Shown here: positions 1-6,203 of the stretch, piece by piece
Layout: the number at the start of each line of letters is the position of its first letter
Numbering within the stretch: position 1 is the first letter of the stretch
Source: an uncultured Clostridia bacterium
GTDB taxonomy: Bacteria > Bacillota > Clostridia > UBA1381
DNA: 41,784 bases
Direction of reading: 5' to 3'
NCBI GenBank assembly: GCA_947626075.1
Contig: CANQQW010000010.1
Coordinates: 1 to 41,784 of the forward strand
Notes under the pieces: model-generated
The model's database searches: none
Told to the model about the DNA's origin: nothing
The model's input: only the letters and a program-made list of their open reading frames with translations
Translations under genes and position numbers: made by a program

Positions 1-682
1 TACAAATACGCCCAACAGTGTAACCTGCATATTTATATCCCATAGTATAAGGGTTGCCAACACATACATAAGGTGTATCATCTATATTATCATACAAATG
101 ATTATTGTCATGTGTTAAATACAGTGCTCTTGTGATAAGTCTTGCTGCCTCTTCACGTGTGATAAACGTATTAGGTGCAATATTATCTGTGTCATCAAGA
201 TCAATTTCAAGAGCTATTGTATTTGTATCAGTTGTACCATTGATAATTTCATCGTAGTCGTCGAGGAGCGTTGCGATTTTTTTGTTGCTTGCATCGCTGC
301 CATCGCCGATAAGACCGAGTTCAAGCGCCTTATCAAGGTACGGCTGTGCCCATGACGCCCAGTGATTTGTCCAATACTGCGGATTTGTCGGATCGTCCGT
401 CGCGACTTGCCGGTAATCCGCGCCCTTAGGTGTTACGCTGCCCGGAGCGACGTACTCAACAATTGTCTTGACAAATTCTTCATGCGTCATTGCCTGACCG
501 GGGCGGAACGTGCCGTCCTCGTAGCCGGAGAACACGCCGCGCTCCGCCATTTTTGTAACGCTGTTATACGCCCAATGGTCGGGACCGATGTCGGTAAACT
601 GCGCGGCTTGCGCCGTTGCCGGCGCCGTTGCCGTTATCGCCGCTATTGCAAGCGATAAGATTTTTTTGATTCTTCTTTTCAT
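1..682 (-). CDS. S-layer homology (SLH) domain protein, N-terminal part, runs off the left edge
   Basis: An open frame of about 227 codons continues past the window start, so the C-terminus is unseen. It begins with a signal peptide (MKRRIKKIL, then an Ala-rich hydrophobic stretch ending TAQAAQ). A first SLH module follows (FTDIGPDHWAYNSVTKMAERGVF, with GYEDGTFRPGQAMTHEEF about 25 residues on), then a second divergent module with HWASWAQPYLDKALELGLI and ITREEAARLITRAL. SLH modules bind pyruvylated secondary cell-wall polymer, so this is probably a surface protein. The ATG at 682 is chosen because AAAGGA lies 12 bases upstream; an in-frame ATG at 703 is the alternative. The gene follows a structured leader with a terminator. 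GC content falls sharply in the distal coding part (1-240). Family call secure; function of the missing part unknown. Confidence 0.85.
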   Translation of the reverse strand, partial: MKRRIKKILSLAIAAITATAPATAQAAQFTDIGPDHWAYNSVTKMAERGVFSGYEDGTFRPGQAMTHEEFVKTIVEYVAPGSVTPKGADYRQVATDDPTNPQYWTNHWASWAQPYLDKALELGLIGDGSDASNKKIATLLDDYDEIINGTTDTNTIALEIDLDDTDNIAPNTFITREEAARLITRALYLTHDNNHLYDNIDDTPYVCVGNPYTMGYKYAGYTVGRIC

Positions 683-727: not shown

Positions 728-770
728 AAATAAAAATGCGTGACCTCACTTAACGCAAAGCCACGCACTA
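728..770 (-). terminator. Intrinsic terminator in the leader of the SLH gene
   Basis: On the minus strand a 31-base element at 737-767 folds into a continuous 13-bp hairpin with a five-base loop (GTTAA). It is followed directly by TTTTTATTT. Several pairs are G-U, so the reverse complement would fold poorly, which fixes the strand. It lies about 46 bases before the SLH start codon, so the gene would need read-through. Confidence 0.8.
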
Positions 771-916
771 AAAAACGCGGTCTTTGACATTAAATGTTGT
801 CACACATTTCTCCTCAATAAATCCAACAATAGTGGTAAAAAATAGTTGCCAAAGTTACCTACGCCTTTTTCATAGCGTAAGCACTATTATTGGAAATATT
901 AAAGAAATATGTGACA
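730..916 (-). ncRNA. Structured leader RNA or small RNA of about 187 nt, unknown family (riboswitch-like)
   Basis: Transcription from the promoter at 923-951 should begin near 915-917, exactly at the first base of a long helix. P1 pairs 903-915 with 799-811 (13 bp, one G-U). P2 pairs 882-893 with 823-834 (12 bp, one G-U). P3 pairs 875-881 with 858-864 (7 bp, one G-U) and has a 10-base loop. A 22-base single-stranded joiner (836-857) and an AT-rich internal loop separate the helices. The RNA ends in the terminator at 737-767. I compared it by eye with consensus motifs I remember for c-di-GMP-I/II, c-di-AMP, T-box, SAM, TPP, purine, THF and 6S RNAs and found no match. It may be a cis-regulator of the SLH gene or a free small RNA. 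Confidence 0.6.
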
Positions 917-922
917 TTGTGT

Positions 923-951
923 ATTGTATCACTTTTTGGGAAAATTGTAAA
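923..951 (-). promoter_or_regulatory. Sigma-A promoter for the leader RNA and SLH gene
   Basis: The -35 TTTACA (946-951) and -10 TACAAT (923-928) each match consensus at five of six bases, with a 17-bp spacer. The promoter sits between the smpB terminator and the structured leader, so it gives the leader its own transcription unit. Confidence 0.8.
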
Positions 952-5007: not shown

Positions 5008-5041
5008 TTCGTTCCACCTCCGCGCATATCCTTATCGTTTT

Positions 5042-5070
5042 ATTATACACTATTTTTTTCCGCTTTTCAA
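5042..5070 (-). promoter_or_regulatory. Sigma-A promoter of the nadK-argR-recN operon
   Basis: TTGAAA (5065-5070) and TATAAT (5042-5047) are separated by 17 bp, about 35 bp before the nadK start codon. It is the only strong promoter I see for this five-gene run. Confidence 0.85.
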
Positions 5071-5168
5071 TAGATTTCGGGACTTTTGACGTTAATATTT
5101 TTAAATTTGCATTTTCTTTGTCTTTGTGTTAAAATTAGTTTTAAAAGTAATGGTAAGGAGTAAATGTT

Positions 5169-6203
5169 ATGGCGATTTCTTTCCGAGGAGCGAAAAATTA
5201 CAAAAAGCATAACGGGTCTCCCGAGTCGGCGGTGATACGTACGCCGATTGCGTCGCCTGTACATTTTTATCCGCTTACGCAAAAAAACGGGCTTTTGCTC
5301 ACGCCGACGGTCAGTGTCGGCGAAACGGTGCTTCGCGGTCAGAAATTGGCAGATCTCGACGTTTTCGCGGCGCTGCCGGTAATATCAAGCGTGTCGGGAA
5401 AAGTACTTTCCGTCACGGAAAATATGATTGCGGTGGAAAACGATATGCTGATGACCTCTCTTCCGTTAAATCCGGCCGGTAAAACGTACAATGAGCTTAC
5501 GATGCGTGAAATACTTTGGATTATGCGTGAAAGCGGTATATGCGACGCGCGTACCGCCGAGCCGGCGCACGTTCTTCTCGGCGAGGGCAAGACGCCGGAA
5601 TGTGTCATAGTATGCTGTTTCGACAGCGATCCTTATGTATCGTCGCCGCAAGCCGCCGCGCACGGCAGCGCGGAAAAAATACTTCACGGACTTGGGGCGG
5701 CGCTTCGCGTGGTCGGTATTAAAAAGGCTATTGTCGCGGTACTAAACGATACTAAAAAAACGTATTACGAGTTCAAGTACCGTTTGCGTTACAATACCGA
5801 TATAAGTTTGTACTGTCTTAAAGCGCGGTACCCGCAAAGCCGCGGCGATATACTTATAAAAACGCTCACGGGCAGGGCGGACACGAATGCGCTTATACTG
5901 TCGGCGGAAACGCTTATAAACATATCCGACGCGCTGAATTACGGCAAAAGAGTAACAGACAAAATCGTTACCGTATCGGGCGACGACATACTCCCTCCCG
6001 ACAATTTCAGAGTACCCGTGGGAGCGACGGTAAGGTCGCTCATAGAAAGCGCGGGATATTCCTCGCCGCAGGCGGTATTTGAGGGAGGCGTAATCAAGGG
6101 ACGTAAAATATCCGATTTAAACGCGCCCGTAAGCGCGTACACAAGCGCTTTAATTGCCTTTAACGACATTAAAAACATTCCAAAATACAGAAAGCTTATC
6201 TGA
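5169..6203 (+). CDS. RnfC-like protein without Fe-S domain
   Basis: This is the only clear plus-strand gene. Residues 28-82 resemble the RnfC N-terminal barrel-sandwich domain (PVHFYPLTQKNGLLLTPTVS, VGETVLRGQKLAD, SSVSGKV). Residues 108-255 resemble the complex I 51-kDa fold, where DSDPYVSS parallels the ECEPY region of RnfC and YPQSRGDILIKTLTG parallels its YP..(E)KQLIK.LTG stretch. Residues 262-320 look like an SLBB domain (VPVGATVRSLIESAG). The usual glycine-rich FMN loop (GLGGAGFPT-like) is replaced by CDARTAEPAH, and the C-terminal ferredoxin domain with its CxxCxxC motifs is absent. No other rnf genes are nearby. AAGGAG lies 8 bases before the ATG; a weak promoter (TTGCAT at 5107, TAAAAT at 5130) is possible. 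Family relation likely, electron-transfer function doubtful. Confidence 0.75.
   Translation: MAISFRGAKNYKKHNGSPESAVIRTPIASPVHFYPLTQKNGLLLTPTVSVGETVLRGQKLADLDVFAALPVISSVSGKVLSVTENMIAVENDMLMTSLPLNPAGKTYNELTMREILWIMRESGICDARTAEPAHVLLGEGKTPECVIVCCFDSDPYVSSPQAAAHGSAEKILHGLGAALRVVGIKKAIVAVLNDTKKTYYEFKYRLRYNTDISLYCLKARYPQSRGDILIKTLTGRADTNALILSAETLINISDALNYGKRVTDKIVTVSGDDILPPDNFRVPVGATVRSLIESAGYSSPQAVFEGGVIKGRKISDLNAPVSAYTSALIAFNDIKNIPKYRKLI

Follow-up and report, generated by a model that had tools for sequence, protein, structure and literature searches.

The RNA element and its neighborhood

The minus strand of the window (the whole 41,784-nt stretch of DNA analyzed here) carries, at positions 732 to 917, an RNA element that follows a promoter and consists of an outer helix (P1) enclosing a second helix (P2), a hairpin (P3) and a joiner, with a terminator at its end. 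Its upstream neighbor is smpB, and its downstream neighbor is a gene for an SLH-domain protein (Pfam SLH E value of 4.5e-22, obtained with the longer frame 2-703), the start of which is most likely at position 682 (MKRRIKK...), 49 nt past the element. Just upstream of the RNA promoter, a terminator-like hairpin on both strands (973-1006) closes smpB, so the leader is probably not transcribed from that gene. The features, with the evidence behind each, are as follows.

923 to 951, minus strand: sigma-70-type promoter, -35 TTTACA at 951-946, 17-nt spacer, -10 TACAAT at 928-923 (motif scan)
903 to 915, minus strand: P1 5' strand, 13 bp in the model, with the predicted start at or adjoining its first base (fold and covariation)
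882 to 894, minus strand: P2 5' strand, 13 bp in the minimum-energy fold (fold and covariation)
858 to 881, minus strand: P3 hairpin, 8 bp (881-874 with 858-865), loop 873-866 with an A-run (fold, covariation and conservation)
857 to 835, minus strand: joiner, 23 nt
848 to 854, minus strand: 5' strand of the predicted pseudoknot (CUUUGGC), within the joiner (strand-swap and covariation tests)
822 to 834, minus strand: P2 3' strand (fold and covariation)
799 to 811, minus strand: P1 3' strand (fold and covariation)
782 to 788, minus strand: 3' strand of the predicted pseudoknot (GUCAAAG), in the linker, partner 848-854 (strand-swap and covariation tests)
776 to 786, minus strand: 5' strand of the predicted antiterminator (CAAAGaCCGCG), in the linker, partner 756-765, A781 bulged (strand-swap and covariation)
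770 to 775, minus strand: conserved U-run between linker and terminator, within the antiterminator loop (conservation)
756 to 767, minus strand: terminator 5' arm (767-760) and bases that extend the antiterminator (759-756) (covariation and strand-swap)
732 to 744, minus strand: terminator 3' arm (744-737) and U-tract (736-732) (scan and covariation)
2 to 682, minus strand: downstream gene for an exported SLH-domain protein, running off the window (Pfam and gene-position rule)

The 203-nt region folds at -77.9 kcal/mol, compared to -40.9 +/- 3.6 kcal/mol for its shuffled versions (z of -10.3, with none of the 200 shuffles as good), and the 126-nt segment 792-917, comprising only P1 to P3, still gives a z of -9.3. 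P1 (915-903/799-811) spans 13 bp in the family model; in the minimum-energy fold it reaches 15 bp, with 5 more inner pairs past a bulge. The terminator stem (767-760/737-744) and its U-tract sit inside a terminator-like site found by scanning. The promoter TTTACA-17-TACAAT scores 10 out of 12, its -10 element ending at 923 and P1 starting at 915, and the predicted transcription start of the window leader is the first pair of P1; shuffles of the region yield on average 1.1 sites of such a score, so that the site alone is weak evidence.

An earlier note on this DNA, made from the letters alone, had already described a promoter that begins transcription at the outer helix and had given this helix 13 bp, and both statements agree with the predictions made here. 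The inner helix, the hairpin and the joiner are likewise present, but with 13 bp, 8 bp, and 23 nt rather than the 12 bp, 7 bp, and 22 bases given there, and the terminator, placed by the note about 46 bases before the SLH start codon, is also recovered, 49 nt from the likely start. The pseudoknot, the antiterminator and the further copies described below go beyond that note.

A family of leaders in Clostridia

Neither the window nor 20 loci that included divergent members gave a match at the gathering score to any Rfam 15 covariance model, the T-box (RF00230) and the c-di-GMP-I riboswitch (RF01051) among them, in agreement with the earlier note, which saw no resemblance to a familiar riboswitch consensus. 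The best subthreshold hits were implausible (mir-547, 22.1 bits versus 90, E value of 0.017). A literature search found no description of this RNA family; the “SLH motif” riboswitch candidate, discussed below, was compared by its description only. Several other identities were tried and rejected. The length and the long hairpin suggested 6S RNA, the sole RF00013 match of which in this genome is found elsewhere (G000:C13:8407-8598, 68.9 bits). ARAGORN finds no tmRNA in the window, despite the proximity of smpB, and a comparison of the leaders by eye detected no conserved ATG or frame that could represent a leader peptide. As for a phage or plasmid origin, the window copy was unmatched in phage and plasmid records, and a single pattern scan of viral contigs was empty.

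Homologues of the leader, the helices of which the earlier note had proposed to check for conservation, were found, and these helices are kept with extensive compensatory change. A nucleotide-level DNA search detected them at an E value of <=0.01 in 31 of 101 genomes, many through short pieces only, and some of these genomes carry several leaders. The covariance model R1, which was built from 11 leaders picked because MAFFT aligned their helices and did not include the window's own leader, matched 42 of 70 genomes of the taxonomic family to which the window belongs at an E value of <=0.001. The window's own genome contains 19 R1 matches at E values of <=0.001 (one of just 86 nt), 20 at <=0.005, and 22 at <=10; under stricter filters, there are 16. 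The covariance model R2 matched 79 of 391 sampled Clostridia genomes, representing 45 of 222 genera, and two genomes, both from Clostridia, in a sample of 398 genomes from across the phylum. All searches over more than 40 genomes were run with the stricter filters, so these carrier counts are lower bounds. The 19 stretches retrieved by a pattern scan of named genomes all come from metagenome-assembled genomes of Monoglobus sp., Clostridia, Oscillospiraceae, or Bacillota bacterium.

R2 and the alignment A5 were derived from 60 matches (E value of <=1e-9) in 55 sources, taken from a parent set of 108 matches in 88 sources, some of them antisense to better matches. The R2 alignment used below, A6, contains 115 matches, which come from the window and 98 of ~160 loci (99 sources). 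It omits duplicates, L138 to L156, and weak or short loci, including L017, L026, L040, L104, and L105, which are R1 matches of 26 to 41 bits (L104 and L105 are two weak copies from the window's own genome). The antisense match L039:3227 was kept in the covariation scores and dropped from the strand-swap, gene-position, promoter, conservation, and balance analyses, leaving 114 copies, from which three more with too short a strand were dropped in the balance folding and one in the promoter analysis. Members of one subgroup (L033, L042 to L045, and L047 to L053) have extra helices between P1 and P2 and leaders of 241 to 277 nt, with a linker and a terminator of the same kind as in the rest of the family.

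The promoter geometry is a family trait. A promoter scoring at least 9 out of 12 lies directly upstream of 83 of 113 copies, compared to 12% of shuffled upstream regions. With one exception (82 of 83), the spacer is 17 nt long, and the distance from the -10 element to the first P1 pair is 6 nt (71 copies) or 7 nt (11 copies). Among the 30 copies below this score are some that carry additional helices between P1 and P2 and whose 5' end is missed by the model.

So is the position in front of genes. By a crude rule that looks solely for co-directional frames, 87 of the 114 copies are followed, at a median distance of 44 nt, by such a frame with a Shine-Dalgarno-like sequence, in 60 cases within 60 nt. 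Of the remaining copies, 11 belong to tandem arrays and have another copy downstream of them, and 16 have no gene by this rule; without the 11 array members, a co-directional frame follows 87 of 103 copies. As a control, the rule was turned outward along the other strand, past the promoter, where it found frames in 32 of 94 cases, 3 of them within 60 nt. If one considers instead the longest frame with 100 or more amino acids downstream of each copy, it is co-directional in 76 of the 103 copies, opposed in 10, and missing in 17 (P = 1e-13 for co-directional versus opposed under independence of the copies, which related copies violate). Inspection of the 16 unassigned copies revealed in 9 of them a co-directional frame that is short, weakly supported, farther away, or disrupted; in L068, L080, L123, and L016, a helix-turn-helix-like gene lies on the opposite strand; near L117, L029, and L100, no obvious target was seen. 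Tandem arrays have gaps of 28 to 287 nt. Three tandem RNA copies precede a small frame, MDYEKMYFELFN..., at L095:3741-4383 (G000:C59), and three more precede a small frame, MEGTNYREMYYLLSQ..., at L020:942-1566 (G073). As judged by eye, each copy in these two arrays has its own promoter and terminator, which is odd for a plain cis switch. An adjoining convergent XRE-type gene at L095 has its own RNA copy on the other strand (5039-5183).

This is a real family of structured RNAs, missing from Rfam 15, with the anatomy of riboswitch-type transcription attenuators and associated with surface-protein genes; its existence, pairings, promoter geometry, and gene position are established by computation. 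It is apparently uncatalogued, being set apart from the SLH motif by that motif's description only.

Alternative pairings and the proposed switch

In the 115 aligned matches, every one of the 41 pairs of P1, P2, P3 and the terminator changes on both sides in some sequences (13 of 13 in P1 and 13 of 13 in P2), and 95.3% of the cells are standard pairs. The covariation score of these model pairs is 0.704, compared to 0.226 for shuffled and 0.08 to 0.11 for slid pairs, in an alignment, A6, that was fitted to this very structure and hence favors it. The two further pairings are not part of the model behind the alignment; they were first spotted by eye and then tested. One is a pseudoknot between the joiner (854-848) and the linker (782-788), with 81.7% of the cells paired and a covariation score of 0.254; the other is an antiterminator in which the linker (786-776) pairs with bases of the terminator 5' arm and those next to it (756-765), with 87.4% of the cells paired and a score of 0.300. 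None of 500 shuffles came as high in paired fraction or covariation score for either pairing, and sliding the strands reduced these values to 31 to 55% and at most 0.120 for the pseudoknot and to 18 to 59% and at most 0.134 for the antiterminator.

Other measures are mixed. The pseudoknot leaves 18.3% of its cells unpaired. Pairs with double changes are no more numerous than in the shuffles (312 of 500 were as high for the pseudoknot and 114 of 500 for the antiterminator), the variety of pair types is partly higher (1 and 23 of 500 as high, respectively), and some slid pseudoknots equal or exceed the observed one in double-change cells (64 versus 62), pairs (8 versus 7), and pair types (26 versus 25). 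The mixed measures for the pseudoknot slightly lower our confidence in the attenuator reading.

The strand-swap test compares the duplex energy of native strands, cut at A6 columns, with that of strands swapped between sequences, in samples with less than 75% identity (n = 75) or less than 65% identity (n = 33). It gave z values of -10.3 and -7.0, respectively, for the pseudoknot, -13.0 and -9.4 for the antiterminator, and -17.5 and -11.6 for the terminator. Two negative controls gave -0.6 and -0.1 (joiner with terminator 3' arm) and -2.5 and -0.4 (joiner with P1'; for n = 75, 5 of 2,000 permutations were as low). A third combination entered as a control, P1' with the terminator 3' arm, turned out positive (-6.1 and -4.6). 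P1 and the terminator are alike in sequence throughout the family (window positions 799-811 and 737-744, minus strand), which might point to one more alternative fold or to a protein-binding site that occurs twice. With the caveat that P values are overstated because the copies are related, covariation in the aligned sequences supports P1, P2, P3, and the terminator strongly and the antiterminator and the pseudoknot well.

Unpaired bases that are strictly conserved outside the U-runs are few, mainly the A's of the P3 loop (three of which reach 96% conservation or more among 53 sequences), one A that follows P1, and some of the linker. Two features of riboswitches are present in this RNA: a conserved aptamer-like domain with covarying helices and, as predicted from covariation and position, mutually exclusive structures before a co-directional gene.

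We consider the element to be probably a cis-acting transcription attenuator of the riboswitch type, one of a family of such leaders in Clostridia. Transcription would start at the first base pair of P1, and P1, P2, and P3 would form an aptamer-like domain, after which the joiner that follows P3 could pair with the linker that follows P1, producing the pseudoknot. Once formed, the pseudoknot would bar the linker from the terminator 5' arm, so that the terminator would form and transcription would stop before the Shine-Dalgarno sequence. If the pseudoknot did not form, the linker would take the terminator 5' arm as an antiterminator, and the surface-protein gene would be transcribed. The conserved U-run between the linker and the terminator might serve as a pause site. 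The 5' strand of the antiterminator and the 3' strand of the pseudoknot overlap in the linker, and this shared anatomy predicts termination upon pseudoknot formation. We infer that these RNAs are transcribed, that the pseudoknot is the OFF state, that the polymerase pauses at the U-run, and that the pseudoknot is stabilized by a small ligand, not by a protein or some other factor. The linkage in cis to the downstream gene is supported by the gene position, which, together with the set of pseudoknot, antiterminator and terminator, backs the riboswitch or attenuator layout envisaged by the earlier note.

When the part from linker to terminator was folded for 111 of the 114 copies, the terminator state was predicted for 61, the window among them, and the antiterminator state for the other 50. 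With the linker blocked, as it would be by the pseudoknot, the terminator helix persists in all 111, at a median cost of 1.1 kcal/mol, and the nominal energy of the pseudoknot (mean, -8.5) outweighs this cost in 106 of 111, in a calculation that disregards loop entropy and kinetics. With the antiterminator and the terminator so nearly balanced, the pseudoknot could decide between them.

Downstream genes, competing readings and known RNAs

A Pfam scan covered 74 of the 87 downstream frames, from copies biased to the window's lineage. Among the 25 of 38 families listed, the most common are BspA-type leucine-rich repeats (22 proteins), the N-terminal domain of copper amine oxidase (7), and SLH (6), followed by dockerin (3), cohesin (2), CHAP (2), and HTH_3 (2). 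The SLH share of 6 in 74 is too low because five SLH orthologues (the window protein, L114, L004, L008, and L011) were left out; counting these, there are at least 11 in 87. The other omitted frames were near-duplicates (L012, L119, L112, L050, and L048), very short ones (L038 and L110), and the 1,655-amino-acid protein of L034. By a crude signal-peptide rule, 56 of the 87 proteins begin like exported proteins. A surface-layer gene regulator, one of the two roles considered in the earlier note, is therefore right as far as it goes but too narrow.

The leader is present at the window SLH gene and at all four of its orthologues (76 to 95% identity), and 12 more distant SLH loci (38 to 49% identity) gave no significant leader match, one of them reaching 19.3 bits with an E value of 0.08; the leader tracks gene lineages, not the SLH domain itself. 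Further downstream products recognized by eye include SLOG-fold-like proteins, zinc ribbons, and small frames beginning MNEYEEMY.... The SLOG-fold-like frames, with GHRK, GSRS, or similar motifs, are found at L015, L018, L076, L082, L110, and L137 and possibly hint at a nucleotide-like signal. Since the downstream genes share no common pathway, no ligand can be deduced from them.

The second role proposed in that note, an independent small RNA, has to be weighed together with other readings of the same data. That the copies are trans-acting small RNAs with their own promoter and terminator, the downstream gene being incidental, would account for the promoter-RNA-terminator layout typical of small RNA genes, for the tandem arrays, and for the copies that have no co-directional gene nearby. 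The gene position speaks against it (76 co-directional versus 10 opposed longest frames; a frame within 60 nt in 60 of 103 copies versus 3 of 94 on the control side), and so does the covarying antiterminator, which has no obvious use in a small RNA gene; we regard it as quite improbable as a general explanation, and it may hold for a minority of the copies. It is yet more improbable that the RNA is a mobile, MITE-like repeated cassette that brings a promoter and a terminator to surface genes and keeps its structure for the sake of mobility. Such cassettes could explain the many paralogues, the very close likeness of copies (L005, L007, L009, and L034) that precede different genes in related genomes, and the RAYT- or IS200-like transposase frames seen by eye near L013, L014, and L120, but mobility does not need three mutually exclusive pairings to be conserved, the promoter distance is kept fixed with most copies facing a gene, and the search of phage and plasmid records with the window copy and the single pattern scan of viral contigs were negative.

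The attenuator could also work as described with another input, namely a protein or other macromolecule (an antitermination or termination factor, a tRNA, or a small RNA) that binds P1 to P3. The paucity of strictly conserved unpaired bases outside the U-runs is consistent with this option, as is the likeness of P1 and the terminator, which could be two sites for one protein. Nevertheless, an unsystematic look beside the copies noticed no shared gene for a cognate regulator, many copies adjoin unrelated genes, and the T-box model found no match, which makes a macromolecular input rather unlikely. Finally, the RNA might be what Stav et al. 2019 (PMC6429828) published as the SLH motif, a riboswitch candidate, in which case a small number of its members would already be in print. 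According to the available portion of that source, the motif comprises 80 examples in Synergistaceae, Clostridia, and Negativicutes, ~60% of them before SLH genes, and its authors propose that it senses a cell wall signal, e.g., c-di-GMP. The same kind of downstream gene and the overlap in taxa (Clostridia) favor this identification, but the share of SLH genes downstream is far from ~60% in our set (6 of 74, or at least 11 of 87), and the 398-genome phylum sample, searched under strict filters, matched in two Clostridia only. As judged from numbers, taxa, and gene classes, all of which differ from those in this partial description (PMC6429828), identity or distant kinship is possible, with outright identity being distinctly doubtful.

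Coming back to the small-ligand riboswitch, c-di-GMP is a possible signal here as well. GGDEF proteins are encoded in all 16 searched genomes of the genus. Only one of these 16, G010, has a match to RF01051, and the other 15 have none; G010 is one of the two genomes in the genus with no R1 match, the second, G013, having neither R1 nor RF01051. RF01786 matched none of the 16 genomes, but its control also matched nowhere, so that this negative carries no weight. Among the 391 genomes of the class, RF01051 is found in 26 of 79 carriers and 139 of 312 noncarriers of the RNA (Fisher P value of 0.07, uncorrected for relatedness), a co-occurrence that neither favors nor rules against c-di-GMP as the ligand. 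It is our tentative proposal, offered with less assurance than the attenuator reading, that the family could be an undescribed riboswitch class, with up to ~19 copies per genome, that ties a surface and secreted proteome of BspA-type leucine-rich-repeat, SLH, cohesin/dockerin, and lipoprotein components to one intracellular signal in gut Clostridia, both in the Monoglobus lineage and in numerous further families. If so, a many-copy RNA switch missing from Rfam would be a major omission from the catalogue of bacterial regulation, and much of the surface proteome of these little-studied gut bacteria would be under a single RNA-based control. The leaders would then offer ready constructs for hunting the signal, and the set of pseudoknot, antiterminator and terminator makes the mechanism testable.

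Among known systems, the SLH motif, as described in the available portion of Stav et al. (PMC6429828), resembles this family in being a structured leader before SLH-domain genes, partly in Clostridia, whereas the RNA described here occurs in many copies per genome, more often precedes genes for BspA-type leucine-rich-repeat and other exported proteins, and was found only in Clostridia. A term search of the available portions of two later surveys (PMC11109978 and PMC8632094) returned no mention of S-layer, SLH, or surface.

Like the c-di-GMP-I riboswitch (RF01051), which reached 11 matches in one genome, the family has several copies per genome in Clostridia, and both families co-occur in 26 of 79 carrier genomes; unlike it, the RNA has no Rfam match. 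The c-di-GMP-I riboswitch is known for the control of surface genes; it has 87 model positions and is not known to form a joiner-linker pseudoknot of this kind. With T-box leaders (RF00230), which have mutually exclusive antiterminators and terminators, the family shares many copies per genome and just such an exclusive pair, and its antiterminator strand contains a CCGCG-like sequence that we take to resemble that of T-boxes. The differences are the lack of an Rfam match, of a visible stem I, and of aminoacyl-tRNA or amino-acid genes downstream among the 25 of 38 Pfam families listed. Transcription-terminating riboswitches with a pseudoknot, such as fluoride, ZTP, and preQ1 riboswitches, work through competition between the pseudoknot and a strand of the terminator or antiterminator. 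The helices and the length of the RNA described here differ from theirs, and its pseudoknot is predicted to sequester the antiterminator strand, which would make it an OFF switch.
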